Below are positions 1 to 15,570 of a DNA stretch of 34,546 nucleotides, piece after piece; position 1 is the stretch's first letter; the number at the start of each line of letters is the position of its first letter. The DNA is from Deltaproteobacteria bacterium (GTDB lineage: Bacteria; Desulfobacterota; JACPFL01), in assembly GCA_016183025.1 (NCBI GenBank), contig JACPFL010000090.1, positions 1-34,546 of the forward strand, read 5' to 3'. The notes below the pieces were generated by a model. It saw only the letters and a program-made list of their open reading frames with translations, was not told the DNA's origin and made no database searches. A program made the translations under genes and the position numbers.

Positions 1-2
1 CC

Positions 3-173
3 CCTGGCGTGGCGTTCCTCGCGGCTGTCGCGCCTGCTGCGTACCTCCAGTGCGCCGGCCTCCCGCTGGAGCTCGCGGCTCCCTGGGGCAGCGGACTCGT
101 CGCCGGGGCACTGCTAGGCGGGCTCCTGTGGCAGGGGCTCGGGAGGCGAGCGGGAGGTGCGCTCGGCTCCTGA
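3..173 (+). CDS. C-terminal end of an integral membrane protein (5' truncated)
   Basis: An open frame enters from the left edge and stops at TGA 171-173. The 56 visible residues are strongly hydrophobic: an alanine/valine-rich segment with one Cys (AAYLQCAGL), then a second Gly/Ala/Leu-rich segment and a short basic tail (GLGRRAGG). This looks like the last one or two membrane helices of a transporter or thiol-redox membrane protein. Because the next gene is a MerP-like protein, a metal transporter is plausible, but too little is present to name a family. The frame after the TGA closes quickly, so this UGA is an ordinary stop. Confidence 0.45.
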   Translation, partial: PGVAFLAAVAPAAYLQCAGLPLELAAPWGSGLVAGALLGGLLWQGLGRRAGGALGS

Positions 174-203
174 GGAGTGTCGCGGGTGATGGAGCGGGTT
201 GCA

Positions 204-229
204 TGAGGTCTGGTCCGTCTCGGACCTCA
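204..229 (+). repeat. Inverted repeat upstream of the first HMA selenoprotein gene
   Basis: TGAGGTC (204-210) is exactly mirrored by GACCTCA (223-229), and inner pairs including GU extend it to about 10 bp around a 6 nt loop. It lies 30 bases after the preceding stop and about 90 bases before the next start. There is no T-tract, so it is a weak intrinsic terminator at best; an operator or mRNA hairpin is equally possible. Confidence 0.4.
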
Positions 230-318
230 GGGGGCGCGGGGCTAGGAGCAGAGACCAGGACTGTCGGGAGGTGAGACCGTATTCGGTCCCCGCCCGGCGC
301 TATTCACGGGAGGCGCAC

Positions 319-828
319 ATGAGAAAGACCACGAGGGGGATAGTTGCTGGCCTGGGGCTGGGGTTCACTGTCCTGGCGGGCCTGCCGGGCTCCGCACGGC
401 AGGTGCTGGCCCAGGTGGAGGAGGCGACGATCAAGATCCAGGGGACGATGACCTGCGTCCTCTGAGCGTACGGGATCGACAAGTCCCTACAGCGCCTGGA
501 TGGCGTTGCCAGATCGAAGACGTCCCACGAGACCCACCTGGCCCACGTCACGTTCAAGCCCGGCAAGCCCGTGGACTTCGAGGAGTTGGCCCGGGCTGTG
601 GACAAGGCCGGGTTCAAGGCTGGGGAGATCCAGATCCGGGCCACCGGCACCCTGACGATCGCGGGCGGGCACCTGGCCCTGAAGGTGGCGGGGAGTGACC
701 AGGTGATCCCCCTCGTCGAGGACGAGCAGGCGGCCAGGCTCAGAGGGGAAGCAGGCCGGCGGGGCACCCTCACCGGGCGGGCCCGCGGGAAGGCCCTGGC
801 GGTGGAGACGTTCGTCCCGAAGCCGTGA
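319..828 (+). CDS. Secreted MerP-like HMA-domain selenoprotein (CxxU)
   Basis: The 169-codon frame starts at ATG 319 behind GGGAGG (309-314) and contains TGA at 463-465, read here as selenocysteine 49. Residues 1-31 are a signal peptide (basic start, hydrophobic core, AQ at the end). Residues 35-105 are a heavy-metal-associated (MerP/CopZ) fold in which the usual MTCxxC loop reads MTC-VL-U, followed by a typical beta-alpha-beta continuation (VTFKPGKPVDFEELARAVDK). About 60 further residues form a beta-rich tail of unknown role. HMA domains bind soft metal ions through the two chalcogen residues; in the periplasm this would be a Hg/Cu scavenger handing ions to a transporter. Without readthrough neither half makes sense: the first stops inside the metal loop and the second lacks it. 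The start is clear; Sec is an inference from the Cys position. Confidence 0.85.
490..508 (+). promoter_or_regulatory. SECIS-like hairpin after UGA 463-465
   Basis: Bases 490-496 pair with 502-508 (7 bp, one GU) around the loop TGGAT. The loop starts 31 bases after the UGA and has G as its second base, matching the published loose bacterial SECIS rules (apical loop 16-37 bases after UGA, a G within the first two loop bases). Found by eye, not by a folding program. Confidence 0.5.
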
Positions 829-856
829 GGGGCGGATAAGCCGAGACGGGGGTGCC

Positions 857-1753
857 ATGCGAGAGAAGCCGGATCCGATGACGAGATGGCCCTGTCATCG
901 TCGCGTGCGAGTTGTCCAGACCTGGGTACTGGTGGGCAGCCTCGTGGTGCTCGCGGGCAGTGTGCTGGCTGCCGCCGGGCCGATGTGCCCGCTCCTGTTC
1001 CATTCGAACCGGGAGGGCTCCTATCACGTCTACCGGTTGGACCCCGATGGTTCTGTGACACGCCTGACCCAGGGCCCTGGCAGCCACATGAACCCCGCGG
1101 CCTCCCGAGATGGCCGGGTCATCGCCTACGACCGGGATGGTGATGTCTACGTAACTGACCGGGAGGGCCGGTCGCACCGGCGGCTGACCACTGACGCGAA
1201 GGCCAATGCCTGCCCGGTCCTCTCCCCTGATGGCCGCTGGATGGCCTACCAGAGCAACCGTGCCGGGCGGTTTCAGATCTACCTTCAGGACCTCCGGAGC
1301 GGGCAGGACCAGGTCTTCGTACAGAGCCGCGGCCACGACGGCTGTCCGGCGTTCGGACCGGATGGACGGCGGATCGCCTTCCTGAGTGACCGGGACGGGC
1401 AGGGGGAGATCTACGTGGTGAATCGCGACAGCCGGCAGCAGGAGCGGCTGACCGTTCACGAGGCCATGGACATGGACCCGGCCTTCTCCCCCGACGGGAC
1501 CAGGATCGTGTTCGCCTCGGACCGCGACGGGCACTTCGAGCTCTACCTCCTTGACCTCCGGACTCGGACCCTGGAGCGGCTCACGCGGGGGCCGCGCTCC
1601 AGCATCCAGCCGGCCTTCTCCCCGGATGGCCAGTGGGTGGCATTCGAACGGGACGGGGACGTCCACCTGCTGGACCTCCGGACGCGCCGAGAGGTGAACG
1701 TGACTGATGGCAAGGGGTATAGCGGGGCCCCCGTATGGCTCCCCTGTCCCTGA
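857..1753 (+). CDS. Secreted TolB-like beta-propeller (PD40 repeats)
   Basis: This is a 298-residue protein. After an N-terminal hydrophobic segment (about residues 22-42) it carries six or so repeats of the form (F/A)SPDGxxIxFxSDRDGxxExYxxD, the PD40/WD40-like repeat of TolB propellers: SPDGRWMAYQSNRAG, GPDGRRIAFLSDRDG, SPDGTRIVFASDRDG, SPDGQWVAFERDG. Only the propeller is present; the N-terminal domain of true TolB is absent and no tol/pal genes are near. It therefore is probably a periplasmic scaffold or binding protein of this metal island, not TolB itself. It follows the HMA selenoprotein by 28 bases and precedes the permease gene by 15, so it is probably co-transcribed. Confidence 0.8.
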   Translation: MREKPDPMTRWPCHRRVRVVQTWVLVGSLVVLAGSVLAAAGPMCPLLFHSNREGSYHVYRLDPDGSVTRLTQGPGSHMNPAASRDGRVIAYDRDGDVYVTDREGRSHRRLTTDAKANACPVLSPDGRWMAYQSNRAGRFQIYLQDLRSGQDQVFVQSRGHDGCPAFGPDGRRIAFLSDRDGQGEIYVVNRDSRQQERLTVHEAMDMDPAFSPDGTRIVFASDRDGHFELYLLDLRTRTLERLTRGPRSSIQPAFSPDGQWVAFERDGDVHLLDLRTRREVNVTDGKGYSGAPVWLPCP

Positions 1754-1768
1754 TCGGAGCGGTGACCC

Positions 1769-2806
1769 ATGCGCGAGTTCCTGGGCGAGACGGGGCTCTT
1801 CCTGTACGCGACCGCGAACCATGTGTTCGGGATGATGTACTGGATCTGGTTCCCCGGCCTGGTGGTGTCCGGCTACCTCTGGCTCCGGTGGCACCACGTG
1901 CTGGCCGCTGCCCTCCTGGAGCGGCAGAGGGAGAGGGAGAGCAGCCCGGCCTGGCTCACGGCGCTCCTGCTGGGGATCACGGGCTCCCCGGACCGCGGCA
2001 CCAGTCTGGACGAAGCGCGCCACCTGGTGTCGCGCGGGGCTGGGGCGCGATCAGTCCTCCTGCACCTCGTCGCCAGCCAGCAGCTAGCCCCGTACGCCCT
2101 GGCCTTCCTCGTGACGAACCTCGGGCTCGAGTTTTTCTTGGGCCAGCTCTTGGGAGCGCTCGCCATGGCGCTGGTAGCGTCAGGGCTTGTCCGGCTGGTC
2201 CCGGATGACCGCTGGGAACAGGCCCGGAAGGCGCAGGCCTGGGCCACTACGGACGAGCCCCGGCTGCTCACTGGGGGCATGCCATCCAGGCCCATGCGCG
2301 GGATCCTTCGGTACCTGGCCGGGGAGGTTCGGGTCCTGTGGAAAGGCGTCGTGGTCGGGCTCGTGCTGGCAGGGCTGATCGGCGCGGCGGGCCGGACCGA
2401 CTGGTGGCCGGACCTGGGCAAGGTGGGCGGCGGTGGGTTCTGGACGGCCCTGCTCAACGCCGTGGCCGGCGCCGCGCTGGCCCTCGTCTTCTTCGCGGCC
2501 CCCATCGGGCATCAGCTTGTCGGGACGATGCTCTGGAAGGCCTACACCCTGACGTTTCCCGGGATCGTGGCGTTCTTCCTGGCTACGCTGGCCACCCCCC
2601 GGGCCATCCGTCACTACTGCCGCATGTACGGGGCCGGTCTGGGCCTGTACCTGGGCGGCATCTTCCTTGTCTCGGCGGCCATCGGCGCGCTCTTCGTCGC
2701 GGGCCTGTTCTGGGTTGTGGGATTTGAGGTGACGCACGTGCCGCGGTTCCACGAGATCGTGAACGAGATCATGATATTCTTCTCGGTTTTCGGGAAGACG
2801 ATGTAG
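1769..2806 (+). CDS. Multi-pass membrane protein, predicted permease (ArsP/DUF318-like, tentative)
   Basis: A 345-residue polytopic protein with about eight hydrophobic segments. The first half (helices near 10-45 and 105-145) and second half (190-215, 228-260, 270-290, 295-330) are separated by a polar loop at about 150-185. The layout of two helix bundles with short re-entrant Gly/Pro-rich stretches (TFPGIVAFFLATLATP) resembles the predicted permeases of the ArsP/DUF318 group, which export organoarsenicals or metals, but no diagnostic motif is conclusive. Cys is nearly absent (one, in HYCRMYG). Its position among metal-binding secreted proteins suggests efflux of a metal or organometal. Confidence 0.6.
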   Translation: MREFLGETGLFLYATANHVFGMMYWIWFPGLVVSGYLWLRWHHVLAAALLERQRERESSPAWLTALLLGITGSPDRGTSLDEARHLVSRGAGARSVLLHLVASQQLAPYALAFLVTNLGLEFFLGQLLGALAMALVASGLVRLVPDDRWEQARKAQAWATTDEPRLLTGGMPSRPMRGILRYLAGEVRVLWKGVVVGLVLAGLIGAAGRTDWWPDLGKVGGGGFWTALLNAVAGAALALVFFAAPIGHQLVGTMLWKAYTLTFPGIVAFFLATLATPRAIRHYCRMYGAGLGLYLGGIFLVSAAIGALFVAGLFWVVGFEVTHVPRFHEIVNEIMIFFSVFGKTM

Positions 2807-2844
2807 AGAGTTCCATGCGTCATGCGAGACTCCCCGGAGGGCGG

Positions 2845-3165
2845 ATGAGGCGGAGAGTGGCGGTCGGGGTATGGGTGGTTATCCTGCTGGGGGTGCTGGT
2901 CCCGGCGCTGGGAAGCGGGGCGACCCGCCCGTTCGAGGGGGAGGGCGAGGTTGTCGCGGTGGACCTGGAGAAATCGTCGGTCACGATCAAACACGGGGAG
3001 ATCCGGGGGCTGATGAGCCCCATGACCATGGAGTTCACGGCGAAGTCCCGCGAGCTCCTGAAGGGGGTGAGGCCCGGGGACAAGGTGCGGTTCACGCTGG
3101 AGCGGTCGGGGCTGAGCGTCATCTTGACGGAGATCCTCCGCCAGGGGGAGACGGATTCGAAATAG
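2845..3165 (+). CDS. CusF/CopK-type periplasmic metal-binding protein
   Basis: After a signal peptide (about 25 residues from ATG 2845) comes a small beta-barrel domain with the CusF-like pattern: GEVVAVDLEKSSVTIKHGEI, then GLMSPMTMEF, then LLKGVRPGDKVRFTLE. In CusF the Met residues of this MxxMTM segment plus a His/Trp bind Cu(I) or Ag(I); here His (KHGEI) and the PMTM methionines are kept, so metal binding is likely. ATG 2815 is an alternative in-frame start; 2845 has the better ribosome site (GGAGG 2836-2840) and a cleaner signal peptide. It starts shortly after the permease gene stops. Confidence 0.8.
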   Translation: MRRRVAVGVWVVILLGVLVPALGSGATRPFEGEGEVVAVDLEKSSVTIKHGEIRGLMSPMTMEFTAKSRELLKGVRPGDKVRFTLERSGLSVILTEILRQGETDSK

Positions 3166-3229
3166 GGGGGTCCGCTGGTGGCCGCAGAGGCGACGGGTGC
3201 CCTGCGACCAGGGGAGGAGGCCCATGTGC

Positions 3230-3613
3230 ATGACACGAAGAAGTGGCTGGCTGCTAGTGGGGCTAGGACTGGCTTTAGTGCTAATCCTCGGCGCGGAGGG
3301 CATGGCCCAGGAACAGCAGATCTATGCCCGGGGGAACGTCACGGCGGTGCAGGTGGAAAGGTGCGGCCATAAGCCGGGTAGCTGTGAAGGAACCCTGTCG
3401 CTGAACAGCCACGGGAAGGCCATCACCGTAAAGGTGACGGGCGCGTCGGTCATCAAGATGGATGACAAGCCCATGATGCTCCCCGGGATCAAGGCCGGTG
3501 ATGAGGTGACCGTGGTCTACGTGGAGCAGGCGGACGGGAACGTCGCCAGGGTCGTGGAATACTACATGAAGCCCGGCGAGCACCGTCCTGCCGGGTCCAG
3601 TCCCCGGCATTAG
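3230..3613 (+). CDS. Secreted Cx6CEG protein of unknown function, copy 1
   Basis: ATG 3230 lies 9 bases after AGGAGG (3215-3220); ATG 3224 and GTG 3197 are longer options. A signal peptide ending near MAQE precedes a roughly 100-residue beta-rich domain. Its hallmark is a cysteine pair in CGHKPGSCEG (Cx6C followed by EG), then GKAITVKV, then PMMLPGIKAGDEVTVVYVEQ. The gene at 4365-4715 encodes a clear paralog with the same framework. I do not recognise a named family. The paired cysteines, secretion and neighbours suggest a small OB-like metal- or thiol-binding protein. Confidence 0.75.
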   Translation: MTRRSGWLLVGLGLALVLILGAEGMAQEQQIYARGNVTAVQVERCGHKPGSCEGTLSLNSHGKAITVKVTGASVIKMDDKPMMLPGIKAGDEVTVVYVEQADGNVARVVEYYMKPGEHRPAGSSPRH

Positions 3614-3643
3614 GGCATCGTGACCGGGCTTCGAGGGGCTTGC

Positions 3644-4183
3644 ATGATCCAAGGATCACGGGCCTCGAACGGTCGGACGGGCGTCCGTGTGCGGACCCGG
3701 CCGGCTGTGGCGGTGGCCACGGCGCTGCTGGTCGTGCTCGCGGGATGGTCCGCGAGCCTAGCCGGCAGCCTCGGGGAGCGCGCGCCCGCCTTCGCCCTGC
3801 CGGGGCTGGTGAACGGCAGGCTGGTGAGCCTCCAGGAGTTCCGGGGCCGGCCCGTGGTGCTGAACTTCTTCGCGGCGTGGTGCCAGCCTTGCTGGGCGGA
3901 GATGCCCGTGCTGCAGCGCGCCTACGAGCGCTACCGGGCCAGTGGAGTGGTCGTCATCGGGATCGGTGTGTTCGATGACGCCCGCTCGCTCCGGGCCATG
4001 GTCGAAAAGCTCGGGATAACCTTCCCCGTCGTCTACGACCGGGACGGGGTGGCTGCCCGGGCGTACCGGCTGTGGGGCCTGCCGTTGACACTCGGCATTG
4101 ACGCCAGAGGCACGATTCGCCGAGTACTGCCGGGCGCGCTGGATGAACAGCGGCTCGAGAAGGCGATTCAGGTTCTGCGGTAA
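3644..4183 (+). CDS. TlpA/ResA-like thioredoxin-fold protein, membrane-anchored or secreted
   Basis: About 179 residues from ATG 3644 (GTG 3620 is upstream and in frame). A hydrophobic segment at about 20-42 is a signal peptide or anchor. The rest is a complete AhpC/TSA-TlpA fold: APAFALPGLVNGRLVSLQEFRGRPVVLNFFAAWC-QPC, with the redox pair Cys80/Cys83 in WCQPC, and the cis-Pro region LWGLPLTLGIDARG. Family members reduce or rearrange disulfides outside the cytoplasm, often for haem or copper protein maturation. Here it may keep the cysteine/selenocysteine loops of the neighbouring secreted metal proteins reduced. The frame ends at TAA. Confidence 0.85.
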   Translation: MIQGSRASNGRTGVRVRTRPAVAVATALLVVLAGWSASLAGSLGERAPAFALPGLVNGRLVSLQEFRGRPVVLNFFAAWCQPCWAEMPVLQRAYERYRASGVVVIGIGVFDDARSLRAMVEKLGITFPVVYDRDGVAARAYRLWGLPLTLGIDARGTIRRVLPGALDEQRLEKAIQVLR

Positions 4184-4364
4184 GCACGTAGAGACGGGCT
4201 TCCTGGTGGGGGGCGACCATGCGAGGGCTCATGCCTGAACAGGCGGGGGGGTGACCCCACCCCGGGTGAGGAGTAGGGCCTCCCTCGGGCTTCCCGGACC
4301 GAGAACAAGACCGGGGAGGGATACGTGCTGCGCCTAGGTGCGCATAGGAAGGAGGGTCACAGAC

Positions 4365-4715
4365 ATGAGGGCAGTGATCCGTCTGCTTGCCCCGGTTGCT
4401 CTATCCCCTTTCCTCCTTTGGGGCCTCATTGTGGGTCCTTCGCTGGCCTCCGAGGAGGGGAGCTATGAGGGTCGCGTCCAGGACGTCAAAGTGATCAAGT
4501 GCGGCCTCCCGCCGGCGGAGTGTGAGGGCTCGCTGCTTCTTGACGTGGCCGGGAGACCGGTGACCATCGCCCTGAAGCTCGGGCCGAAGGAACTCGTCAG
4601 GGGCCAGGAAACGATCGGTCTGCCCATGATCCGCCCTGGCGACGTGGTCACCGTCCGATATGTGCGGCAGGGGGATGAGCTGGTGGCCCGCAGCGTTCGG
4701 GTCCATCCCCGCTAG
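4365..4715 (+). CDS. Secreted Cx6CEG protein of unknown function, copy 2
   Basis: ATG 4365 follows AAGGAGG (4349-4355) at good spacing. The 116-residue product has a signal peptide (about 1-32, ending SLASEE) and the same domain as the protein at 3230-3613: VIKCGLPPAECEGSLLLD, GRPVTIALKL, IGLPMIRPGDVVTVRYVRQ, ARSV. The two copies share Cx6CEG, the LPxIxxGDxVTVxYV stretch and the terminal ARxV, so they arose by duplication and diverged strongly. Function is unknown; a metal or oxyanion binding role is inferred from context. The 180 bases before it contain small GC hairpins (for example 4248-4263) but no gene. Confidence 0.75.
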   Translation: MRAVIRLLAPVALSPFLLWGLIVGPSLASEEGSYEGRVQDVKVIKCGLPPAECEGSLLLDVAGRPVTIALKLGPKELVRGQETIGLPMIRPGDVVTVRYVRQGDELVARSVRVHPR

Positions 4716-4807
4716 GTGAGGTGGCTGACGGGATGGGCCCCATGCAAGTCCTCCAGCACGATGCCGGTGAGATTGCCACAAGCACAAAAGAGGGGAGGGA
4801 GAAAGGC

Positions 4808-5107
4808 ATGCGCGTAAGAACAATTGCCGCTCTTGTGACGGTTCTGGGTGTCATCGGCCTCGGGGCCAGCCTCGGCCTCAGCCAGCCGATGACAGGGATG
4901 GAGCAGCAGGCTCCTGGTGGGGAGATGCCCATGGGGCCGGGTCCGGGAATGATGGGCGGGCAGATGGGCCAGATGCCGATGATGCCCATGATGCAGATGA
5001 TGAACGAGTGCGCCCGGATGATGGCACAGATGGGCGGTGGCATGGGAGGCACGGCCCCCGGGCAGACGCCTGCGCAGCCCGGGACGCCGGCACCCCGGGG
5101 GAGGTAA
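4808..5107 (+). CDS. Small secreted methionine-rich protein
   Basis: A 99-residue product from ATG 4808 behind a GAGGGAG site. Residues 1-25 are a signal peptide. The mature part is nearly all Gly, Pro, Gln and Met, with about 18 methionines and a single Cys within some 50 residues (MPMMPMMQMMNECARMMAQM). Clustered methionines of this kind bind soft monovalent metals such as Cu(I) and Ag(I) in periplasmic chaperones and in CopB/PcoE-like proteins. The middle may form an amphipathic helix with a methionine face. It is probably a metal sponge; no enzymatic fold is visible. Confidence 0.75.
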   Translation: MRVRTIAALVTVLGVIGLGASLGLSQPMTGMEQQAPGGEMPMGPGPGMMGGQMGQMPMMPMMQMMNECARMMAQMGGGMGGTAPGQTPAQPGTPAPRGR

Positions 5108-5120
5108 GGAGGGTCAGGTG

Positions 5121-5369
5121 ATGGCAGGACCAGCGGTGCGTGTGTACTCCGAGCCCGGGTGACTTTTTTCGGACCAGGCGAAGGAGTTCCTGTCGCGCCA
5201 TCAGATTGCGTTCACGGACCATGACACGGCCAGCGACCCCGCCGCGCTGGAGGAGGCGCTGCGGCTGAACCGAGGCGTCCGGGTGACGCCGGTGATCGCG
5301 GTAGGGGAGGAGGTCGTGGTCGGCTTTGACGAGCCACGGTTGCGCCGCCTGCTGGGGCTGGAGGGGTGA
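5121..5369 (+). CDS. Glutaredoxin-like selenoprotein (UxxS)
   Basis: ATG 5121 follows AAGGAGGG (5107-5114). TGA 5160-5162 is codon 14 of 83 and falls exactly where glutaredoxins have the first Cys of CPxC: VRVYSEPG-U-LFSDQAKEFL. After it the family pattern runs on undisturbed: LSRHQIAFTDHD, then the cis-Pro loop GVRVTPVIAVGEEVVVGFD, and a closing helix RLRRLLGLEG. The second Cys of the motif is Ser, giving a monothiol-type (here monoselenol) UxxS site. There is no signal peptide, so it is cytosolic. It could reduce glutathione- or metal-linked mixed disulfides in metal detoxification. It sits 27 bases before the double-UGA HMA gene. Confidence in the fold is high; Sec is inferred from position. 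Confidence 0.85.
5163..5192 (+). promoter_or_regulatory. Candidate SECIS region of the glutaredoxin gene
   Basis: Two alternative hairpins follow UGA 5160-5162. One pairs 5175-5178 with 5189-5192 (CAGG/CCTG) around a 10-base loop with G second, starting 16 bases after the UGA. The other pairs 5164-5171 with 5179-5186 (8 bp with several GU) around GACCAGG but is only 9 bases away. This is the weakest SECIS candidate in the window. Confidence 0.3.
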
Positions 5370-5395
5370 CCTCGCCGATTCCCGGATGAGGGCCC

Positions 5396-5659
5396 ATGGA
5401 ACGAGCGCAAGTCCTGCTCCGGATCACCGGCATGACCTGAGGACGCTGAGCCGCCCGGGTGCGGGGGGCTTTGGAGAAGCTCCAGGGCGTGCAGGAAGCG
5501 ACGGTGGATTGGGAGGAAGGATCGGCCCTGGTCTCCTACGATCCGGAGGGCCTGACGCTCCAGCAGCTCCAGGAGGCTGTGGAGGCCTCCTCTGACGCCG
5601 ACCATGTGTACCGGGTCGTCGGGAGCCGGCTGGCGGAACCCTGGCCGCCTCCGAGATGA
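5396..5659 (+). CDS. HMA-domain protein with two in-frame UGAs (GMTUGRU)
   Basis: From ATG 5396 the frame meets TGA at 5438-5440 and again at 5447-5449, then stays open to TGA 5657-5659 (87 residues). Both UGAs replace exactly the two cysteines of the HMA signature GMTCxxC, giving ITGMT-U-GR-U-AARVRGALEKLQGV. The rest is a full HMA domain: the helix after the loop, VQEATVDWEEGSALVSYDPEGLTLQQLQEAVEA, and a short tail. The paralog at 10563 has Cys at the first and UGA at the second position, so cysteine and UGA interchange within this locus. A diselenol metal site would bind Hg(II) or Cu(I) very tightly. No signal peptide is seen, so it is a cytosolic chaperone-like protein. Ordinary gene callers would report only the fragment after the second UGA. 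Confidence 0.85.
5468..5488 (+). promoter_or_regulatory. SECIS-like hairpin of the double-UGA HMA gene
   Basis: Bases 5468-5476 pair with 5480-5488 (9 bp, two GU) around AAG. The loop starts 27 bases after the second UGA and 36 after the first, so one element could lie in range of both. The same structure at the same spacing occurs after the UGA of the paralog (10704-10724); two GU pairs here are GC there. The underlying codons encode the same Ala-Leu-Glu, so the changes are synonymous. Confidence 0.5.
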
Positions 5660-5726
5660 GGCGGTGTGGGACCGGCCGGGACAGTATGAAGCGGTAGGGG
5701 GATACAGCGGAAGGAGGGAGGAGGGC

Positions 5727-6401
5727 ATGGGACCGAGGAAGCTCTGGTCAACCCTCGCTCTGGTTGGGATTTCCACTCTGGTCTGGCTAGCGGGGACGAT
5801 AACTGGCGCGGCGGCCGGATTCCAGCAGGCGCCGGGCTCGGGGGCGGAGGGTCGGGTGCTCGTCTATGTGACGCCCCGCTTCCTTACGGTCAATGCCACC
5901 TGCCTCCGTCAGGAGCCGTGCGAGCGGGAGGTCCGGACTGCGCTGGAGAAGACGGCGGGGATCGGCAAGATCATGGCCTACCGCCCGCAGGGGGCCATGA
6001 TGGTGGACTATGAGGGCAAGCGGATCACGCCGGAGCAGCTGACGGGGGTCGTCACCAGGGCGATGGCTGGCGAGCCGGTCCGCTGGACGCCGATCGAGGT
6101 CCGGTACACGGGCTCCCGGAAGGTCCCCAACAAGCTCGTGGCGCAGGTCAGCCCGGGGCGGGTGACCCTGGTCTCAGAACGGTTCCTCTGAATTTCCTGT
6201 GCGACGCGTGCCGTCGCATGGATCGAGAAGTTGCCGGGGATCACGAAAGTGGAGTTCTTCGGGCCTGAGCACATGATCGTGGCGGACTACGACGCGAAGA
6301 AGGTCAACGGGAAGGGCATCGCCGCCATGGGGCTGATGTCCCTGGAGATGGACCCTATCTACGCGGCCCTGCCGGAGTACACGATCGAATACGTCAAGTG
6401 A
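5727..6401 (+). CDS. Secreted tandem HMA-like selenoprotein (second domain UxxC)
   Basis: The 224-residue frame starts at ATG 5727 after GGAGGGAGGAGGG and includes TGA 6189-6191 as codon 155. Residues 1-36 are a signal peptide. Two related HMA-like domains follow. Domain 1 (about 46-120) has a modified loop, RFLTVNATC-LRQEP-C, and GIGKIMAYRPQGAMMVDYEGKRITPEQL. Domain 2 (about 145-215) repeats the pattern as RFL-U-IS-C-ATRAVAWIEKLPGITKVEFFGPEHMIVADYDAKKV. Both loops begin with RFL, so the domains are an internal duplication, and the UGA is the first metal ligand of domain 2. Translation ending at the UGA would leave a complete first domain, so a shorter product is also possible. It would act in the periplasm as a soft-metal binder. 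Confidence 0.8.
6197..6221 (+). promoter_or_regulatory. SECIS-like hairpin after UGA 6189-6191
   Basis: Bases 6197-6205 pair with 6213-6221 (9 bp, including six consecutive Watson-Crick pairs TGCGAC/GTCGCA) around the loop GCGTGCC, which begins with G. The loop starts 14 bases after the UGA, slightly closer than the usual 16-37. It is the most stable-looking hairpin of the set. Confidence 0.5.
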
Positions 6402-6444
6402 CCTGGGCCCTGGCACAGGAGCACCCAACATCGGGGAACATTCG

Positions 6445-7062
6445 ATGTCCGAGTGGGCAGAAGAGATCGAGCGCTATCTGGCGAGCTTTTCCCCGGAAGA
6501 GGTGGCGGTGAGCCGGTATGCCTTCCGCGCCATCCTCGCCGGCGCGCCCGCGACGCTGACCGAGTTGCCCGGCGCCCTCAGCCTGTCGCCCGCAGCGGTC
6601 GAGGCCGCCGTCCGCCGGCTCACCGAGCGGGGAATCATGGCGATGGCCCCCCAGCCCCAACGGATCGTGGGGGTCCGTGGGCTGTCCTCGGTCGAAACGG
6701 ACCATCGCCTCACGCTGGGAGGGCGCCAGCTCTACGCCTGGTGCGCCGTGGATGGGGTGGGGATCCCGGCCGCGCTCAGGGCCGACGCTCGGGTGGAATC
6801 CCGCTGCCACCACTGCGGGGTCCCGCTGAGCCTGGAGCTCAAGGGCGGGGCCGTCGTTGAGGCGCCGGAGGGGCTGGTGATCTGGGCCGCGGAGCGGGAT
6901 CTGAGCCGGTCTCTCCGGGCCTACACCTGACCGCTCATCAACTTCTTCTGCTCGGTCGAGCACATGCAGGCGTGGGAAGTGACTGCCCCACGGCCGGGCC
7001 GGATGCTGACCCTCGGGGGGGCCGCTGCCCTGGGCCCCCGCCTATGGGGGAGCCTTCTGTGA
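6445..7062 (+). CDS. merB: MerB-type organomercurial lyase, selenoprotein form
   Basis: Reading through TGA 6928-6930 as codon 162 gives 205 residues, close to MerB length (about 212). The N-terminal winged-helix region (residues 1-80) is followed by the MerB core: LYAWCAVD supplies the catalytic pair Cys100/Asp103 (Cys96/Asp99 in plasmid R831b MerB), SRCHHCG holds the structural Cys, and after the UGA comes PLINFFCSVEHMQAW, matching the CHVHFFAS...W segment that carries catalytic Cys159. The UGA aligns with that Cys159. MerB cleaves the C-Hg bond of organomercurials by protonolysis, giving Hg(II) for MerA. The frame ends at TGA 7060-7062. No merA or merR is in this window. The TGA truncation alone would remove an essential residue, so Sec readthrough or a pseudogene are the alternatives; the intact tail argues for readthrough. 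Confidence 0.88.
6949..6962 (+). promoter_or_regulatory. SECIS-like hairpin in merB with GGTC loop
   Basis: TGCTC (6949-6953) pairs perfectly with GAGCA (6958-6962) around the tetraloop GGTC. The loop starts 23 bases after the UGA. The E. coli fdhF SECIS has a GGUCU apical loop recognised by SelB, so loop and spacing both fit well. Confidence 0.6.
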
Positions 7063-7204
7063 GGCGGATGGGTGGCGGCTGACAAGCCCACGTGCATTTC
7101 TCGCGTGATTGGAGAGATTTTCGCCGGCTGACCTGTGAACCATTTGATCATTCCGGGAGTATTAGGAGAGTGGGGCAAGGAGCATGAGGCGGAGGGGCAC
7201 CCCG

Positions 7205-8611
7205 ATGGCAAAGGACGACGCGCCAGTTCTCAGAGGAGGGTTCGGCCCTCGCCAGGAGGGCGAAGCTCTCCTGGTCTGTCTCCAGCGGAAGGAGGGCCTG
7301 GAGGCCGTCCTGGACAGCATCACGAGGGACGGACTCATCACGGTCGACGAGACCGGGCAGGTCGCCGTCTTCAACCGGGCGGCGGAGCAGCTCACCGGGC
7401 TGACCCGGACAGAGGCTTCGGGGTTGACGGCCGAGGAGCTGTTCACCCGGATCCTGGGGTCGGGTTCGCTCATCAAGCAGGCGCTGGCCGAAGGCCGGTA
7501 TGGGCCTGATGAGGAGCAGGAAGTGCTCTCCCGAGACGGGAGCCGTCGCCGGGTGGCTGTCACGGCGAGCCCGATCCTAGAGGACACGGGGCAGCGGGCG
7601 GGGATCATGGTGGTCCTGCGGGACATCCAGGATCTCCACGAGCTGCGGGAGCAGCTCATCGACCGCTTTCGGTTCCACCACCTCATCGGGAAGAGCCGTC
7701 CCATGCAGGCGGTCTACCAGTTGATCCGGCAGGTGGCCGGCAGCGGGGTCCGAGGCCCGTTCGTTCCGGTGAACTGCGCGGCTTTGCCGGAGGGGCTGTT
7801 GGAGAGCGAGCTGTTCGGACATGTCCGGGGGGCCTTCACCGGAGCCCACCAGGACCGCACCGGTCGCTTCGACGCGGCGAACGGGGGAACCATCTTTCTG
7901 GACGAGATCGGCGAGATGAGCCCCCTCATCCAGGTGAAGCTGCTGCGGGTCCTGCAGGGGCACGAGTTCGAGCGGGTGGGGGAGAGCAAGCCCCGGCGGG
8001 TGGATGTCCGGGTCCTGGCGGCGACGAACCGGAACCTGTGGGAGCTGGTGCAGGCGGGGAAGTTCCGGGACGACCTGTACTACCGCCTGAACGTCGTGAC
8101 GATCCACCTCCCGCCCCTGCGCGAGCGGCGGGACGACATTCCCCTGCTGCTGGACCACTTCATCGGAAAATTCAGCCGGCAGCTCGGCAAGGAGGTCCGG
8201 TCGGTCAGCCGTCCCGCGCTGCGGGCGCTGATGGGCTACGACTGGCCGGGGAACGTCCGGGAGCTGGCCAACGTGATCGAGCGGGCGGTCCTGCTCACAG
8301 CGGGGCGCTCCATCGACATCGAGGATCTGGCGCTGGGTCGGGACCGGGGGAGGCCGCGCGCGGGCGGGCCCGCCGCTGGGCCCATGATGCCAACCGAGAG
8401 CGGAGCGGGGGGCCGTCCCGCTCCGGAAACCGGGCTCGCCCTCAAGGACCTTGAGCAGGCCCACATCGCTTGGGTCCTGGCCCATACAGAGGGGCGGCGC
8501 AACCAGGCCGCAGCACTCCTCGGCATCAGCCTGCGCAGCCTCTACCGGAAGCTCCGTGAGTACGGCTTGAGCGGGGGCCCTGCGGGAGCGGGACCGGGAG
8601 AGGCAGCCTGA
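7205..8611 (+). CDS. Sigma54-dependent activator (PAS-AAA-Fis) lacking the Walker A loop
   Basis: A 468-residue regulator from ATG 7205, placed 8 bases after GGAGGGG; ATG 7184 is an alternative. Residues 30-150 are a PAS sensor ([29 protein letters not shown]). The sigma54 AAA+ domain follows with [23 protein letters not shown], the sigma54-contact loop GAFTGA (209-214), Walker [13 protein letters not shown] (228-238), sensor [12 protein letters not shown], arginine-finger region [12 protein letters not shown] and sensor [18 protein letters not shown]. The C-terminus is a Fis-type HTH ([23 protein letters not shown]). Between QVAGS (176-180) and VRGPF the usual 25 or so residues containing GESGTGKE are missing without loss of frame. 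ATP binding should be crippled. It lies between the merB-type and merE-type genes and near a sigma54 promoter (9070), so it is probably the local regulator. Confidence 0.9.
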
Positions 8612-9123
8612 CGGCGACTGGCTGGAAGCGCCACATACTGCTAGCCACGGCGGCTGTGACCTGTCCCTGTCACATCCCGGTGTTGGCGGCGATCCTCGGG
8701 GGGACGGCCCTGGGTGGCTTTCTAGCGGAGCACTGGGCTCTGGCCGTGGGGGCGGCCAGCTTCCTGTTCGCGTTCAGCCTCGGAGCCTGGCTCAGCAGTC
8801 GGCCTCGCGCCGCAGCTTCGGGGTGCGGGGGCGGCGGCCTCGATCCTCAATCTCTTCCTAGTCAGGGGTTGGCGTGGTCAGGGGTTGGCGTGCGAGGACA
8901 GCATGAAGGGACTGCAGATCTGGCACGGAGCCCCTGCCAGCTCTGGCGGTTAGCCGTGTCAGATCTGGCGGTAGCTTTCCCGCGAGCGTGGGCCCGGGCA
9001 GTGTTTGGCCAAGAGCCGTTTCGCGGCGGGGAGTTACATGGCCTCATTCATCCGGCGGGCGGACCTGCCGGGCATACCCCTTGCGTAAGCAGCTCAGAGC
9101 AAAGCCGAGGATGTCCTGGCTAG
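8608..9123 (+). CDS. merE: MerE-like mercury transporter with odd start and long tail
   Basis: The core [55 protein letters not shown] matches the small MerE family (TGYLWG..VLTCPCHLPILA...GAFIGEHW), a two-helix inner-membrane protein that moves Hg(II) and methylmercury through its CPC motif. No ATG exists: the only standard start in frame is GTG 8656, which would cut the first helix just before CPC. CTG 8608, overlapping the regulator's TGA as CTGA and preceded by GGAGAGG (8597-8603), fits the expected N-terminus better. After about residue 70 similarity ends and the frame continues roughly 100 residues through low-complexity sequence, crossing a 16-base tandem duplication (8861-8892). That tail is probably not real family sequence; the true stop may have been lost by the duplication. 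Confidence 0.7.
8861..8892 (+). repeat. Tandem duplication of a 16-bp unit
   Basis: GTCAGGGGTTGGCGTG occurs twice back to back with no mismatch. Sixteen is not a multiple of three, so the duplication changes the frame of anything translated across it. With a single copy the merE-like frame would end some 25 codons further on, at TAG 8951-8953. Confidence 0.9.
8919..8986 (+). repeat. Three degenerate 22-23 bp repeats, candidate activator sites
   Basis: TCTGGC recurs at 8919, 8942 and 8964, followed each time by a short spacer and AGC (TCTGGCGGTTAGC, TCTGGCGGTAGC). The period is 23 then 22 bp, about two helical turns. The first unit contains a perfect dyad CTGGCA/TGCCAG (8920-8925 and 8935-8940); the second an imperfect TCTGGC/GTCAGA. 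They lie about 110-180 bp upstream of the transcription start expected from the sigma54 promoter at 9070, the usual place for enhancer sites of NtrC-type activators. Confidence 0.5.
9070..9085 (+). promoter_or_regulatory. Sigma54 (-24/-12) promoter
   Basis: GGGCATACCCCTTGCG matches the consensus TGGCAY-N5-TTGC at every conserved base except the first T. The GG (9071-9072) and GC (9083-9084) dinucleotides are exactly 10 bases apart. Transcription should start near 9096 and serve the DUF302, membrane protein and HMA selenoprotein genes. A sigma54 activator gene ends less than 500 bases upstream. Confidence 0.6.
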
Positions 9124-9232
9124 CCGAAGGAGGATGAGCGGGGCACTGCCCGACGGGGCTGGGGCCGACTGATGGTGAGGGACGTCAGCAGGTCCTGCCC
9201 GGGAAAGTCCCTCAAGACAAGGAGGGTGTTCC

Positions 9233-9688
9233 ATGAAGAAGAAGGTGCTGCTGGTCGTGGGACTGCTGCTCGCCCTGGGCGCGAGCGCCTGGGCGCAGAC
9301 CCTGGAGCGCGTGGACCGGGTGTCGAACAGCGGCTTTGACAAGACGGTGCGCCAGCTCGAGGTGGCGATCAAAGGGAAGGGCATGATGGTCGTGGCGGTG
9401 ATCGACCATCAGAACATGATGCGCATGGTGGGGATGAACGTCCGGGGAAGCAAGACCCTGGAGTTCGGCAAAGCCGAGATGGGGAAGATGATCCTGGGGA
9501 GCCATCCGGAGGCGGGGCTGGAGAACCCTGCGAAGCTCTACGTCTTTGAGCGGGGCGACGGAAAGACGGTGGTGAGCTACTACAAGCCTTCGGGCGGGTT
9601 TGCCACCTACAGGGCAGATAGCCTGCGCCAAGTCGGCCAGATGATGGACCAGGTGCTGGCGGAGATCGCGGCCGAAGGGACCCGCTAG
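9233..9688 (+). CDS. Secreted DUF302-domain protein
   Basis: ATG 9233 follows AAGGAGG at ideal spacing. A classic signal peptide (MKKKVLLVVGLLLALGASAWAQ) is followed by a DUF302 domain: SGFDKTVRQLEVAIKGKGMMVVAVIDH, SKTLEFGKAEMGKMILGSHPEAGLENPAKLYVFERGDGKTVVSYYKPSGGF. DUF302 proteins are small dimeric periplasmic or cytosolic proteins of unknown biochemical role; the conserved asparagine/lysine (ENPAKLYVFE) is kept. It is the first gene after the sigma54 promoter. The mature protein carries many methionines (MMVVA, NMMRMVGMN), which may bind soft metals. Confidence 0.85.
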   Translation: MKKKVLLVVGLLLALGASAWAQTLERVDRVSNSGFDKTVRQLEVAIKGKGMMVVAVIDHQNMMRMVGMNVRGSKTLEFGKAEMGKMILGSHPEAGLENPAKLYVFERGDGKTVVSYYKPSGGFATYRADSLRQVGQMMDQVLAEIAAEGTR

Positions 9689-9708
9689 CCAGGGTTGGAG
9701 CACGAACG

Positions 9709-10554
9709 ATGCTCATCACGTGGATCGATCTCCTCTTTGTGGTCGCCGGTCTGGCAGCCATGGCTGTGGGGCTCAGGCGGCGGTGGGCAGTGCCGCCGCC
9801 TGAGCCAGCGCCGCCGTCATCAGCCGGAGAGCTTGTCCTGACGGGCCTCGCCCTGGTGCCGGCGGCGGTCGGCCCCAACGTCCTCGTTGTGGCCCTGACC
9901 CCAGGGATGCCGGGCATGCCGATCCTCACCCGCTGGGTGCTCCTGCCATCGATCCTTCTCCTGCTCGTAGTGTGGGGAGCGGCGTTCGCCCGGGGGTACG
10001 CGCGGCTACAGAACCGGATCTGGACCGGCCTCTGGATCGGGGCGGCGAGCACGGCGGCGCTGGACGTGTTTCGTCTCACCAGCTTCAGCCTGGGACTCCT
10101 ACCGGGGAATCTGCCCCGGATGTTCGGGGTCCTGATCCTCGACACCATGGCCGGCGGCCCCACGCCGTTCTCGGACTTCGCAGGCTCCCTGTACCACTAC
10201 TGGGTCAGCGCCTGCTTCGGCCTGACCTATGCCCTGATCTGCGGGCGCACCCGCTGGTGGGGGGGCCTGATCTGGGGCCTGCTCATCGAGGTGGGGATGA
10301 TGACCACCCCGCCGATGGTCATCGCCATGGACACGGGGTACTTCGGCCTGAAGCTGGGCCAGGGGATCTTCAACGGAGTGTTCCTGGGAAGCCTCGTCCC
10401 CCATGTGTCGTACGGCATTGCCCTCGGCCTGCTCCTGGAACGGTACGTGCGGCATACGGGGTCGGTCTTCGGGCTAGCCGCGCGGCTGCTGCGTCCGGCC
10501 GTCGCGCAGGGTGCGCCGGGGCCGCTGGATTCGCCGGCGCTCCGGCATCGGTAG
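9709..10554 (+). CDS. Polytopic membrane protein of unknown family
   Basis: A 281-residue protein with about seven hydrophobic segments (about residues 5-22, 42-68, 78-98, 105-130, 140-170, 183-205, 222-246). It has no signal peptide other than helix 1, no Cys-rich motif in the membrane and no ATPase domain. Conserved-looking features are DTMAGGPTPFSDFAGSLYHYW and GYFGLKLGQGIFNGVFLGSLVPHVSYG. I do not recognise the family. It is 20 bases after the DUF302 gene and 8 bases before the HMA selenoprotein gene, so the three form an operon, and it may be a metal transporter fed by that chaperone. Confidence 0.75.
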   Translation: MLITWIDLLFVVAGLAAMAVGLRRRWAVPPPEPAPPSSAGELVLTGLALVPAAVGPNVLVVALTPGMPGMPILTRWVLLPSILLLLVVWGAAFARGYARLQNRIWTGLWIGAASTAALDVFRLTSFSLGLLPGNLPRMFGVLILDTMAGGPTPFSDFAGSLYHYWVSACFGLTYALICGRTRWWGGLIWGLLIEVGMMTTPPMVIAMDTGYFGLKLGQGIFNGVFLGSLVPHVSYGIALGLLLERYVRHTGSVFGLAARLLRPAVAQGAPGPLDSPALRHR

Positions 10555-10562
10555 CGTCATCC

Positions 10563-10910
10563 ATGGTGAAGTGGCGCAACCTGTGGCATGACCCTGGGAT
10601 CTTCCCGGACCCGGCGGGGCAAGCCCCAACCGGTGGGAACCAGCAGGTCCGCCTGAAGGTCACGGGGATGCTGTGTGGCCTGTGAGCCCGCCGGGTGCGG
10701 GGGGCCCTGGAGGGGCTCCCGGGCGTGGTCAGGGCTGAGGTAAGCCTGGCGAGCGATGCCGCGGAGGTCGTCTGCGCTCGCCCCTTCGCGTGGGAACAGG
10801 TTGAGTCGGCCGTTCGGGCGACGGTCATCCTACCGGGTCTCCGGCGCCTGCTCGATCGGCTCGGGCGGGCCTGGGGCCTGGGGCGGTCGGGCGCACGGGG
10901 CCCCGGCTGA
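10563..10910 (+). CDS. HMA-domain selenoprotein (GMLCGLU)
   Basis: From ATG 10563 the frame contains TGA 10683-10685 as codon 41 and ends at TGA 10908-10910 (115 residues). VRLKVTGMLC-GL-U-ARRVRGALEGLPGVVRAEVSLASDAAEVVC is an HMA domain whose second metal ligand is the UGA. It aligns directly with the double-UGA protein at 5396 (U-AARVRGALEKLQGV): first ligand Cys here, UGA there; second ligand UGA in both. About 28 extra residues precede the domain and a helix rich in Leu/Arg follows. With no signal peptide it should act on the cytosolic side, perhaps delivering metal to or from the membrane protein encoded 8 bases upstream. Confidence 0.83.
10704..10724 (+). promoter_or_regulatory. SECIS-like hairpin after UGA 10683-10685
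   Basis: Bases 10704-10712 pair with 10716-10724 (one mismatch at 10708/10720) around GGG. The loop starts 27 bases after the UGA, exactly as in the paralog at 5468-5488. Confidence 0.5.
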
Positions 10911-13572: not shown

Positions 13573-13701
13573 AACCCCCGGCGGATCGAGCCGGTAGAGC
13601 ACGGTGAGTGCATTCTCGTTTGACAAAGCGGCGAGCTGGAGGCTACCCGTGACATCACAGCATGGCGGTACTGGGCCATGGAACCGCAAGGAGGGTCGCC
13701 C

Positions 13702-14916
13702 ATGAGACGCGGGATGATGATTTGCGGCTGTCTCTTCGCCGGGCTCCTCACCGCGGGAGCCGCTCTCGCCGAACCATGCCTCTCTCCCTACGTCAAGCGC
13801 CTGGCGGGCCCGGAGAAGTACCTCTACGTCTCCGCGGTGGACGCCGACGCCAAGGACAACGACTTTCTCGCCGTGATCGATGTGAACCCGGCCTCGGCAA
13901 CGTACGGTCGGGCGCTCACGACAGTGGACCTGGGCTCGGCTGGGAACGAGCCGCACCACATGGGGTTCACCGACGACCGGACCAAGATCTGGATGGGCAC
14001 CCTCCTCTCCAGGCGGCTCTTCATCATCGATGTGGCCGCCGACCCGGCCACGCCCAAGATCGTCAAGACCATCGACGACATCACCGCGCTCACGGGGCTC
14101 CACGGCCCCCACACCTACTACGCGCTTCCGGGGCGGATGCTCCTCACGTTCCTCTCCTCTGCGGACGGCAATCCCCCGGGGGGCATGGCGGAGTTCACCA
14201 ACGACGGGCAACTGATCCGGGTGTTCAAGAACCCGGCCGGGGCGCCCTACGCCTACGACGCGGCCGTGAAGCCGCAAATCAACCGCCTGATCACCTCGAG
14301 CTTCACGCCGCTGCGGAACTACTCGAAGCCGCTCTCCCAGTGGGACATGAAGGACGGCGGCAACACCCTGCTCGTCTGGGACTTCAAGGAGCGGAAGCTC
14401 CTCCAGACCCTCGTCACCGACCCGGTGCCGTTGGAGGTGCGCTGGAGCCTCAAGCCGGGCAAAGCGTACGGCTGGACCAACTCGGCGCTGGGCGACTCCC
14501 TGTGGTTCTTCAGCCGGGGGAAGAACGGCCGCTTCTCCACGAGGAAGGCGGCGGACCTGGGGAAGGGGTGCCTCCCGGCTGACCTCCGTCAGTCGCCGGA
14601 CGACCGTTACCTCTACGTCTCCTGCTTCATGAAGAGCGAGATCCAGGTCTGGGACGTGTCCAAGCCCGACAGGCCGCGCCTCCACGACATCGTGGTGCCG
14701 GGCGTCTCCCCGAACATGATGCACGTGTCAGGGGACGGCAAGCGGATGTACATCACCAACTCGCTCCTCTCGACCATGGACTACGCGCAGAACTTCTGGG
14801 TCCGGCTGACCCACATCGGCCCGGACGGCCGGCTCAAGATGGACCCGTTCTTCAACGTGGACTTCACCAAGTTCCCCACCGGGCCGGCACGGGCCCACGA
14901 CATGCTCCTGAACTGA
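13702..14916 (+). CDS. mtoX: SBP56 selenium-binding protein / methanethiol oxidase type
   Basis: ATG 13702 is 6 bases after AAGGAGGG. The 404-residue protein has a signal peptide (to about residue 24) and then the SBP56 seven-bladed propeller over its whole length: KYLYVSAVDADAKDNDFLAVIDVNP, GNEPHHMGF, HGPHTYYALPGRMLLTFLS, LPLEVRW-like PLEVRWSLKP, ADLRQSPDDRYLYVSCF, SPNMMHVSGDGKRMYITNSL, AHDMLLN at the end. The histidines of NEPHHMG, HGPH and the C-terminal AHD are the copper ligands expected of methanethiol oxidase, which oxidises CH3SH to formaldehyde, H2S and H2O2 in the periplasm. Human SBP56 binds selenium. A SCO1 copper chaperone gene follows directly, as at known mtoX loci. Methanethiol or methylselenol are possible substrates. 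Confidence 0.9.
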   Translation: MRRGMMICGCLFAGLLTAGAALAEPCLSPYVKRLAGPEKYLYVSAVDADAKDNDFLAVIDVNPASATYGRALTTVDLGSAGNEPHHMGFTDDRTKIWMGTLLSRRLFIIDVAADPATPKIVKTIDDITALTGLHGPHTYYALPGRMLLTFLSSADGNPPGGMAEFTNDGQLIRVFKNPAGAPYAYDAAVKPQINRLITSSFTPLRNYSKPLSQWDMKDGGNTLLVWDFKERKLLQTLVTDPVPLEVRWSLKPGKAYGWTNSALGDSLWFFSRGKNGRFSTRKAADLGKGCLPADLRQSPDDRYLYVSCFMKSEIQVWDVSKPDRPRLHDIVVPGVSPNMMHVSGDGKRMYITNSLLSTMDYAQNFWVRLTHIGPDGRLKMDPFFNVDFTKFPTGPARAHDMLLN

Positions 14917-14919
14917 GCC

Positions 14920-15570
14920 GTGACCCCTGGGCGCCGGCTCAGCGTCGGGGTCCTGGCCGGGGTGTGGCTGCTGGCGGCTGCGCCCCGGCTCGCCCACCCC
15001 CACGGACCGGGCGCCTCCCGGCCAGCCGTCCCCGGCAGGCAGGCGCTCTCGTCGAGTCCCAACCTGGGGGTCATCCGTCCCGCCCCTGACTTCACGCTCG
15101 TAGATTTTAAGGGGCGATCGGTCCGCCTGTCAGAGTTCCAGGGACGGGTCGTGCTTCTGGCCTTCATCTACACCTCCTGTCCAGGGGCCTGCCCGCTGCT
15201 CACCCAGCGGATGGCCCTGCTCCAGGCCCGGCTCCGGGAGGCTCGGCTCCTCCCCTCCCGCGTCGGCCTCCTGTCCGTGACCGTTGACCCTGAACGCGAC
15301 AGTGCCGAGACCCTGGCGCGCTACGCCAAAGGGTTCGGCGCCGACTCCGAGGGGTGGCGGTTCCTCAGGGAGAGCCAGGAGCGTCTCAGGCCGGTCCTGA
15401 CCGCCTACGACGAGTGGACCAAGCCGATCCCCGGAGGCGAGATCGACCACCCGGCCCGCCTCTACCTCATCGACCCGCGCGGGCGGATCCGGGAGATCTA
15501 CAGCCTGTCGCTCTTCGACGAGCGCCAGGCTTACTTGGACATCCAGGCCCTTCTCCGGGAGTCTCGGTAA
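14920..15570 (+). CDS. SCO1/SenC copper chaperone
   Basis: GTG 14920 starts 3 bases after the SBP56 stop, so the two are translationally linked. The 216-residue product has an N-terminal signal or anchor (residues 8-22) and the SCO thioredoxin fold: APDFTLVDFKGRSVRLSEFQGRVVLLAFIYTSCPGAC, with copper ligands Cys87 and Cys91 (Cx3C) and His177 (GGEIDHPARLYLIDPRG). SCO1 proteins deliver Cu to the CuA site of cytochrome oxidase or to other copper enzymes. Next to SBP56 it most likely metallates that protein. Confidence 0.9.
   Translation: MTPGRRLSVGVLAGVWLLAAAPRLAHPHGPGASRPAVPGRQALSSSPNLGVIRPAPDFTLVDFKGRSVRLSEFQGRVVLLAFIYTSCPGACPLLTQRMALLQARLREARLLPSRVGLLSVTVDPERDSAETLARYAKGFGADSEGWRFLRESQERLRPVLTAYDEWTKPIPGGEIDHPARLYLIDPRGRIREIYSLSLFDERQAYLDIQALLRESR

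Follow-up and report, generated by a model that had tools for sequence, protein, structure and literature searches.

The contig JACPFL010000090.1 of a Deltaproteobacteria bacterium (assembly GCA_016183025.1), analysed here over its entire length of 34,546 nucleotides (contig C171, the window), carries seven in-frame UGA codons in six genes. It is well supported by sequence that these codons are read as selenocysteine (Sec), which would replace metal-binding or catalytic cysteines. The six genes span positions 319-10,910, all lie on the + strand in a single direction, and other genes are interleaved with them. We think that this selenoprotein island probably serves to handle soft metals, most likely mercury or organomercury. 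Selenium binds mercury more tightly than sulfur does, yet little is understood of Sec in proteins that bind metals. The genome bin comprises 3.68 Mb in 308 contigs and is 90% complete. It was compared with 395 genomes of the same phylum, none of which belongs to the same class.

In-frame UGA codons and the selenocysteine machinery

The number of seven UGAs in six genes was confirmed by their positions and by domain models that run through them. The HMA model PF00403 spans the UGA positions with scores over its cut-off in HMA1 (319-828), a secreted-looking HMA/MerP-like protein with the motif GTMTCVLU (Sec codon 463-465; 40.5 bits), in the CopZ/MerP-like HMA2 (5396-5659; GMTUGRU, Sec codons 5438-5440 and 5447-5449; 59.7 bits) and in HMA4 (10563-10910; GMLCGLU, Sec codon 10683-10685; 34.5 bits). 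PF00462 spans the UGA of a Uxx-star-type glutaredoxin-like selenoprotein (5121-5369; PGULFS, Sec codon 5160-5162) with 38.6 bits, and PF03243 that of a MerB organomercurial lyase (6445-7062; TUPLINFFCS, Sec codon 6928-6930) with 91.3 bits, both over the cut-off. The remaining gene, HMA3 (5727-6401; FLUISC, Sec codon 6189-6191), encodes a secreted-looking double HMA-like protein with weak MerP/HMA similarity. Its matches are sub-threshold (PF00403, 17.1 bits; TIGR02052 MerP, 27.1 bits), and its U aligns with the first cysteine of the CopA CxxC solely in a sub-threshold alignment. No relatives of HMA3 were found in the 395 phylum genomes or in plasmids, and none that was convincing in the PDB. 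The initial annotation had placed every UGA at a metal-binding or redox cysteine. They do fall on family cysteine columns, clearly in five genes and weakly in HMA3. The top-scoring Sec-HMAs in a scan of the collection came from this genome only; in the other TGA-containing HMAs of the phylum that were inspected (L118, L124), the TGA lies off the HMA cysteine.

The Sec machinery, which had been suggested as a check, is present in the genome with all components over the curated cut-offs: selA (620 bits), selB (364.8 bits), selD (338.2 bits) and tRNA-Sec (80.2 bits). The selD gene itself carries an in-frame UGA, and downstream of it lies a perfect 9-bp hairpin (loop GTC). Downstream of every UGA in the six genes, codon usage is that of coding sequence in the continued frame. 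Many in-frame UGAs within a short stretch could also result from a genome-wide reassignment of UGA to a sense codon. However, UGA serves as the stop codon in 12 of 28 neighbouring genes (including 1751-1753, 8609-8611 and 14914-14916) and in all six candidate genes, so that wholesale reassignment is out; with a complete Sec machinery in addition, we regard this explanation, already doubted in the initial annotation, as refuted. In the selenoprotein genes UGA is the terminator in six out of six cases, compared with 12 of 28 in the neighbours.

Paralogs and downstream hairpins

A partial second copy of the island is found on the - strand of contig C302 (L059). It consists of HMA1', a relative of the island permease and glutaredoxin', followed by a heavy-metal P1B ATPase. 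HMA1' (53% identity) and glutaredoxin' (94% identity) both have the UGA at the same codon as their counterparts. Since the end of C302 overlaps the start of contig C281 by 172 bp at 93% identity, the two contigs probably adjoin in the genome. C281 (L050) encodes a decayed HMA2' and a further Sec protein, HMA5, with the motif GMTCSGU. On contig C10 (L051, position ~7200), a relative of HMA4 has retained its UGA (LLCDLU); this gene adjoins a TlpA gene and a two-HMA P1B ATPase, whose own HMAs use cysteine. The second island also contains a CcdA-like protein, and its P1B ATPase has YPC where CPC would be expected. In the HMA2 paralog (L050:1100-1350) the metal-binding motif is deleted, with an in-frame fusion to neighbouring sequence or, alternatively, an assembly join.

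The glutaredoxin pair provides the best single piece of evidence that the frame past the UGA is likely translated and under selection. Over the 68 codons after the UGA there are 20 differences, 18 of them at third positions, which corresponds to a non-synonymous divergence (dN) of 0.007 and a synonymous divergence (dS) of 0.455. For HMA2/HMA2' the dN/dS values are 0.124/0.553, and those for the HMA1 pair (0.43/0.61) and the HMA4 pair (0.59/1.05) stem from sequences too diverged for strong inference. The loss of the metal motif in HMA2' indicates that some copies decay, and the UGAs as a whole might be taken for ordinary stops or signs of decay, in truncated or broken genes or as assembly errors. 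However, the strong purifying selection after the UGA in the glutaredoxin pair and the retention of the UGA in paralogs, together with its position on cysteine columns, the coding usage that follows it and the Sec machinery in the genome, largely refute this explanation, and we consider it very improbable.

All six genes have a hairpin on the + strand downstream of the UGA. We refer to these structures as SECIS-like (SECIS, selenocysteine insertion sequence) and not as SECIS, as their function is putative. The hairpin of HMA1 (490-508) has a 7-bp stem and the loop TGGAT, that of the glutaredoxin gene (5178-5196) 7 bp with one bulge and the loop AGTT, and that of HMA3 (6197-6221) a 10-bp stem and the loop CGTGC. 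The weakest of the set is found in merB (6949-6962; 5-bp stem, loop GGTC). HMA2 (5465-5483) and HMA4 (10700-10720) have the loop GGA, which they share, at +23, with HMA5, while the stems of the three differ in a compensating manner. The GGA loop encodes a shared Leu-Glu, and protein conservation may thus explain part of the loop identity.

To score the hairpins, we used a stem score for structures 15-35 bases downstream of the UGA whose loop has 3-6 bases, with G as the first or second of them. The mean score of seven genes (the six of the island and HMA5) was 7.0, whereas the 3,288 UGAs taken from this genome as background averaged 3.9, and none of 20,000 random draws reached 7.0; this score was chosen after a folding-energy test had failed, and, as some of the HMAs are paralogs, the seven values are not wholly independent. 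Sec-HMA genes scored 6.5-8.0 and Cys-HMA genes 2-7. Because the UGAs coincide with family cysteine columns, are retained in paralogs of two genes and are followed by hairpins that lie above background as a set, the pattern goes beyond chance.

The MerB homologue and its relatives in the phylum

By sequence as well as by fold, the closest PDB entry to the island MerB is MerB2 with bound Hg (5c17; E-value 2.5e-28, template modelling score 0.94). The structure model has a mean predicted local distance difference test value (pLDDT) of 90.3 and predicts a true MerB fold. In the numbering of the E. coli plasmid MerB, Sec162 corresponds to C159, Cys100 to C96 and Asp103 to D99. The residues C96, D99, C117 and C159 are used to define MerB (PMC8261052); in the alignment the first three are retained, and position 159 is the UGA. 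The same column is occupied by the cysteine of CPLINFFC in homologues from Chloroflexota, Fraserbacteria, an Asgard archaeon and a genome of the same phylum (L028-L030, L076), and by Sec in SaoL and in double-UGA relatives. The protein scores below the cut-offs of the curated equivalogs (NF009710, 94.5 versus 193 bits; NF033555, 87.9 versus 200 bits) and is filed as a member of the MerB superfamily (PF03243) outside of these. No MerB was found in viral contigs.

Many genomes of the phylum encode a predicted MerB-like family in which both catalytic cysteines are replaced by UGA. Of 59 MerB-like matches in the 395 genomes, 35 have two UGAs; in those of them that were translated and aligned, the UGAs coincide with C96 and C159. 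The family has the pattern GQUAFES...AUSTMN (L023, L025, L073, L074, L079, L081, L082, L084-L089). For the double-UGA MerBs that were scanned, no NCBIfam model scored above its cut-off, and no conserved neighbours were found. A further MerB-like group (L026, L103, L105) has UAVDAF or UAADAF; its member L026 has two additional UGAs, the second in DAFUKESVYF and the third near the C-terminus.

Surveys of methylmercury degraders would overlook such MerBs if they require Cys159 or depend on standard gene prediction, in which UGA ends the frame. If the recoding is true, the effect of Sec on C-Hg cleavage and Hg transfer could be compared directly with natural Cys homologues.

Function of the island and relation to known systems

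Mercury or organomercury is the best reading of the island since MerB, MerP-like HMAs, a MerE-like transporter (8656-9123) and an ArsP_1-type permease (1769-2806) occur together and a merA-like gene exists elsewhere in the genome. The MerE-like protein has a CPC motif and a MerE domain in residues 1-44 (PF05052, 43.2 bits, cut-off 22.8), and the permease, the one with a paralog on C302, matches PF03773 over the cut-off (53.2 bits). The merA-like gene lies near the end of contig C244 (L056) and comprises an N-terminal Cys HMA plus reductase pieces, with matches of 87 and 149 bits that lie in two different frames. In the scheme we propose, MerE and the ArsP-like permease would carry Hg or the organometal through the membrane. 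MerB would bind R-Hg via Se and S and protonate the carbon, and the released Hg(II) would be passed to Sec-HMA carriers, HMA2 and HMA4 in the cytoplasm and HMA1 and HMA3 in the periplasm. The Uxx-star glutaredoxin might keep selenols reduced or act as a metal relay, and the end point would be the merA-like reductase, the P1B ATPase encoded in the second island, or both. Control would probably be exerted by a PAS/sigma-54 activator (7184-8611). A search for sigma-54 promoters yielded fewer matches than expected by chance. All steps beyond the recoding are deduced from families. More specifically, but only tentatively, the island may be a selenium-dependent mer-type system in which a canonical-type MerB with Sec at Cys159, independent of SaoL, works with Sec-HMA carriers and a Sec glutaredoxin, and which is partly duplicated in the genome.

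Several points weigh against this interpretation. Most hairpin sites were not separated from background by folding energy in this GC-rich DNA, and single hairpins are weak: 27% of background UGAs match the score of the MerB hairpin. For HMA3, no homologue with Cys was found. An apparent frameshift and the contig end interrupt the merA-like gene, and the window genes that were scanned include neither MerR nor MerT. Finally, the copper-type neighbours (CusF, SCO1 and the Cu-dependent MtoX) fit a role in copper metabolism.

This last point leads to the most serious rival, in which the same selenoproteins mainly serve copper/redox homeostasis and the trafficking of copper; they might, for instance, supply the neighbouring methanethiol oxidase, and MerB and MerE would be secondary. 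A CusF-like periplasmic metal-binding protein (2845-3165; PF11604, 70.4 bits) is encoded within the island, and the methanethiol oxidase gene (MtoX/SBP56, 13678-14916) is followed by SCO1 (14920-15570), an arrangement known for the Cu-dependent enzyme (PMC5739008); mauG was not noticed beside this pair. The Sec-HMA on C10 with its adjoining TlpA and P1B ATPase would also suit copper, as would the P1B ATPase encoded in the second island. However, MtoX is outside the six-gene set, beyond FHA/trypsin and DedA-like genes. MerB, which has Sec at 159, retains C96, D99 and C117 and is nearest to MerB2, and MerE and the ArsP-like permease are organometal or mercury types. We thus consider the copper explanation rather unlikely, but far more plausible than the other alternatives. 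The selenium-based soft-metal or organomercury system of the initial annotation stands as the best reading, but it is derived from families only and has copper as a serious competitor.

Compared with known systems, the island resembles the mer operon in its MerB fold with C96/D99/C117, MerE and MerP-like HMA proteins. It differs in having Sec at catalytic and metal-binding positions, a sigma-54 regulator with no MerR/MerT seen, and the merA-like gene on another contig. A 2026 review lists a MerB-like SaoL, HgcA/B, a UxxU metal-binding protein, a mercuric transport protein and Uxx-star glutaredoxins as selenoproteins (PMC13188914). The review also describes the multi-selenoprotein operons SAO (Sec-assisted organometallic) and Tso and cites a Methylomirabilota metagenome-assembled genome with 63 selenoprotein genes. 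With SAO (Haft and Gwadz 2023), as portrayed in the review, our island shares a MerB-like selenoprotein whose Sec occupies the C159 column, as in SaoL, and an organometal-linked cluster of several selenoproteins. It is nevertheless very unlikely to be a member of this system. Its MerB reaches 54.8 bits with the SaoL model (NF040728, cut-off 140), whereas a true SaoL in another genome (G125) scores 172.8; it is nearer to canonical MerB/MerB2 and lacks the CU motif. Sec-HMA carriers, MerE and the ArsP-like permease take the place of ABC transporter parts, and no ABC transporter is found among the island genes. A SaoB search of the genome, carried out without a positive control, gave no match. 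The Tso operon, with three selenoproteins, is alike in that several selenoprotein genes stand together.

The UxxU metal-binding family NF041115 shares the HMA fold and Sec in the metal motif. HMA5, which lies outside the window on C281, passes its cut-off of 95 (105.6 bits), while HMA1 (47.4 bits), HMA2 (65.5 bits) and HMA4 (44.3 bits) do not, and CxxU is found besides UxxU. The glutaredoxin has the PGUxx(S/T)-type active site of Uxx-star (NF041212) and scores 65.3 bits, just under the cut-off of 66. Most parts belong to known selenoprotein types, and the kind of system is already known. Of the suggestion that this is an undescribed operon type, what stands is the gene combination, which was found in no other genome searched, this genome itself having a second, related island; with one scan of the genome collection and no genome of the same class among the comparisons, rarity is not proven. 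Sec-HMAs, Uxx-star, SaoL and SAO/Tso have been described before.

Family matches also bore out that the selenoprotein genes are interleaved with genes for secreted metal proteins, the permease, MerE and the sigma-54 regulator. Two similar small secreted proteins with the motif CG-x5-CEG fit no curated family: that at 3197-3613 has a sub-threshold DUF5666 match only, and that at 4338-4715 was recognised from its sequence, without a family match. Between them lies a TlpA/ResA-type thioredoxin (3620-4183) with ordinary cysteines (WCQPC) and a score of 104.8 bits, below the cut-off, with the ResA model. A methionine-rich secreted protein (4721-5107) without a Pfam match and a membrane protein (9709-10554) without a family match are also encoded on the + strand, as are a secreted DUF302 protein (9233-9688; PF03625, 44.7 bits) and a WD40-like beta-propeller protein (857-1753; PF07676, 172.6 bits), the latter an ordinary gene with a UGA stop.

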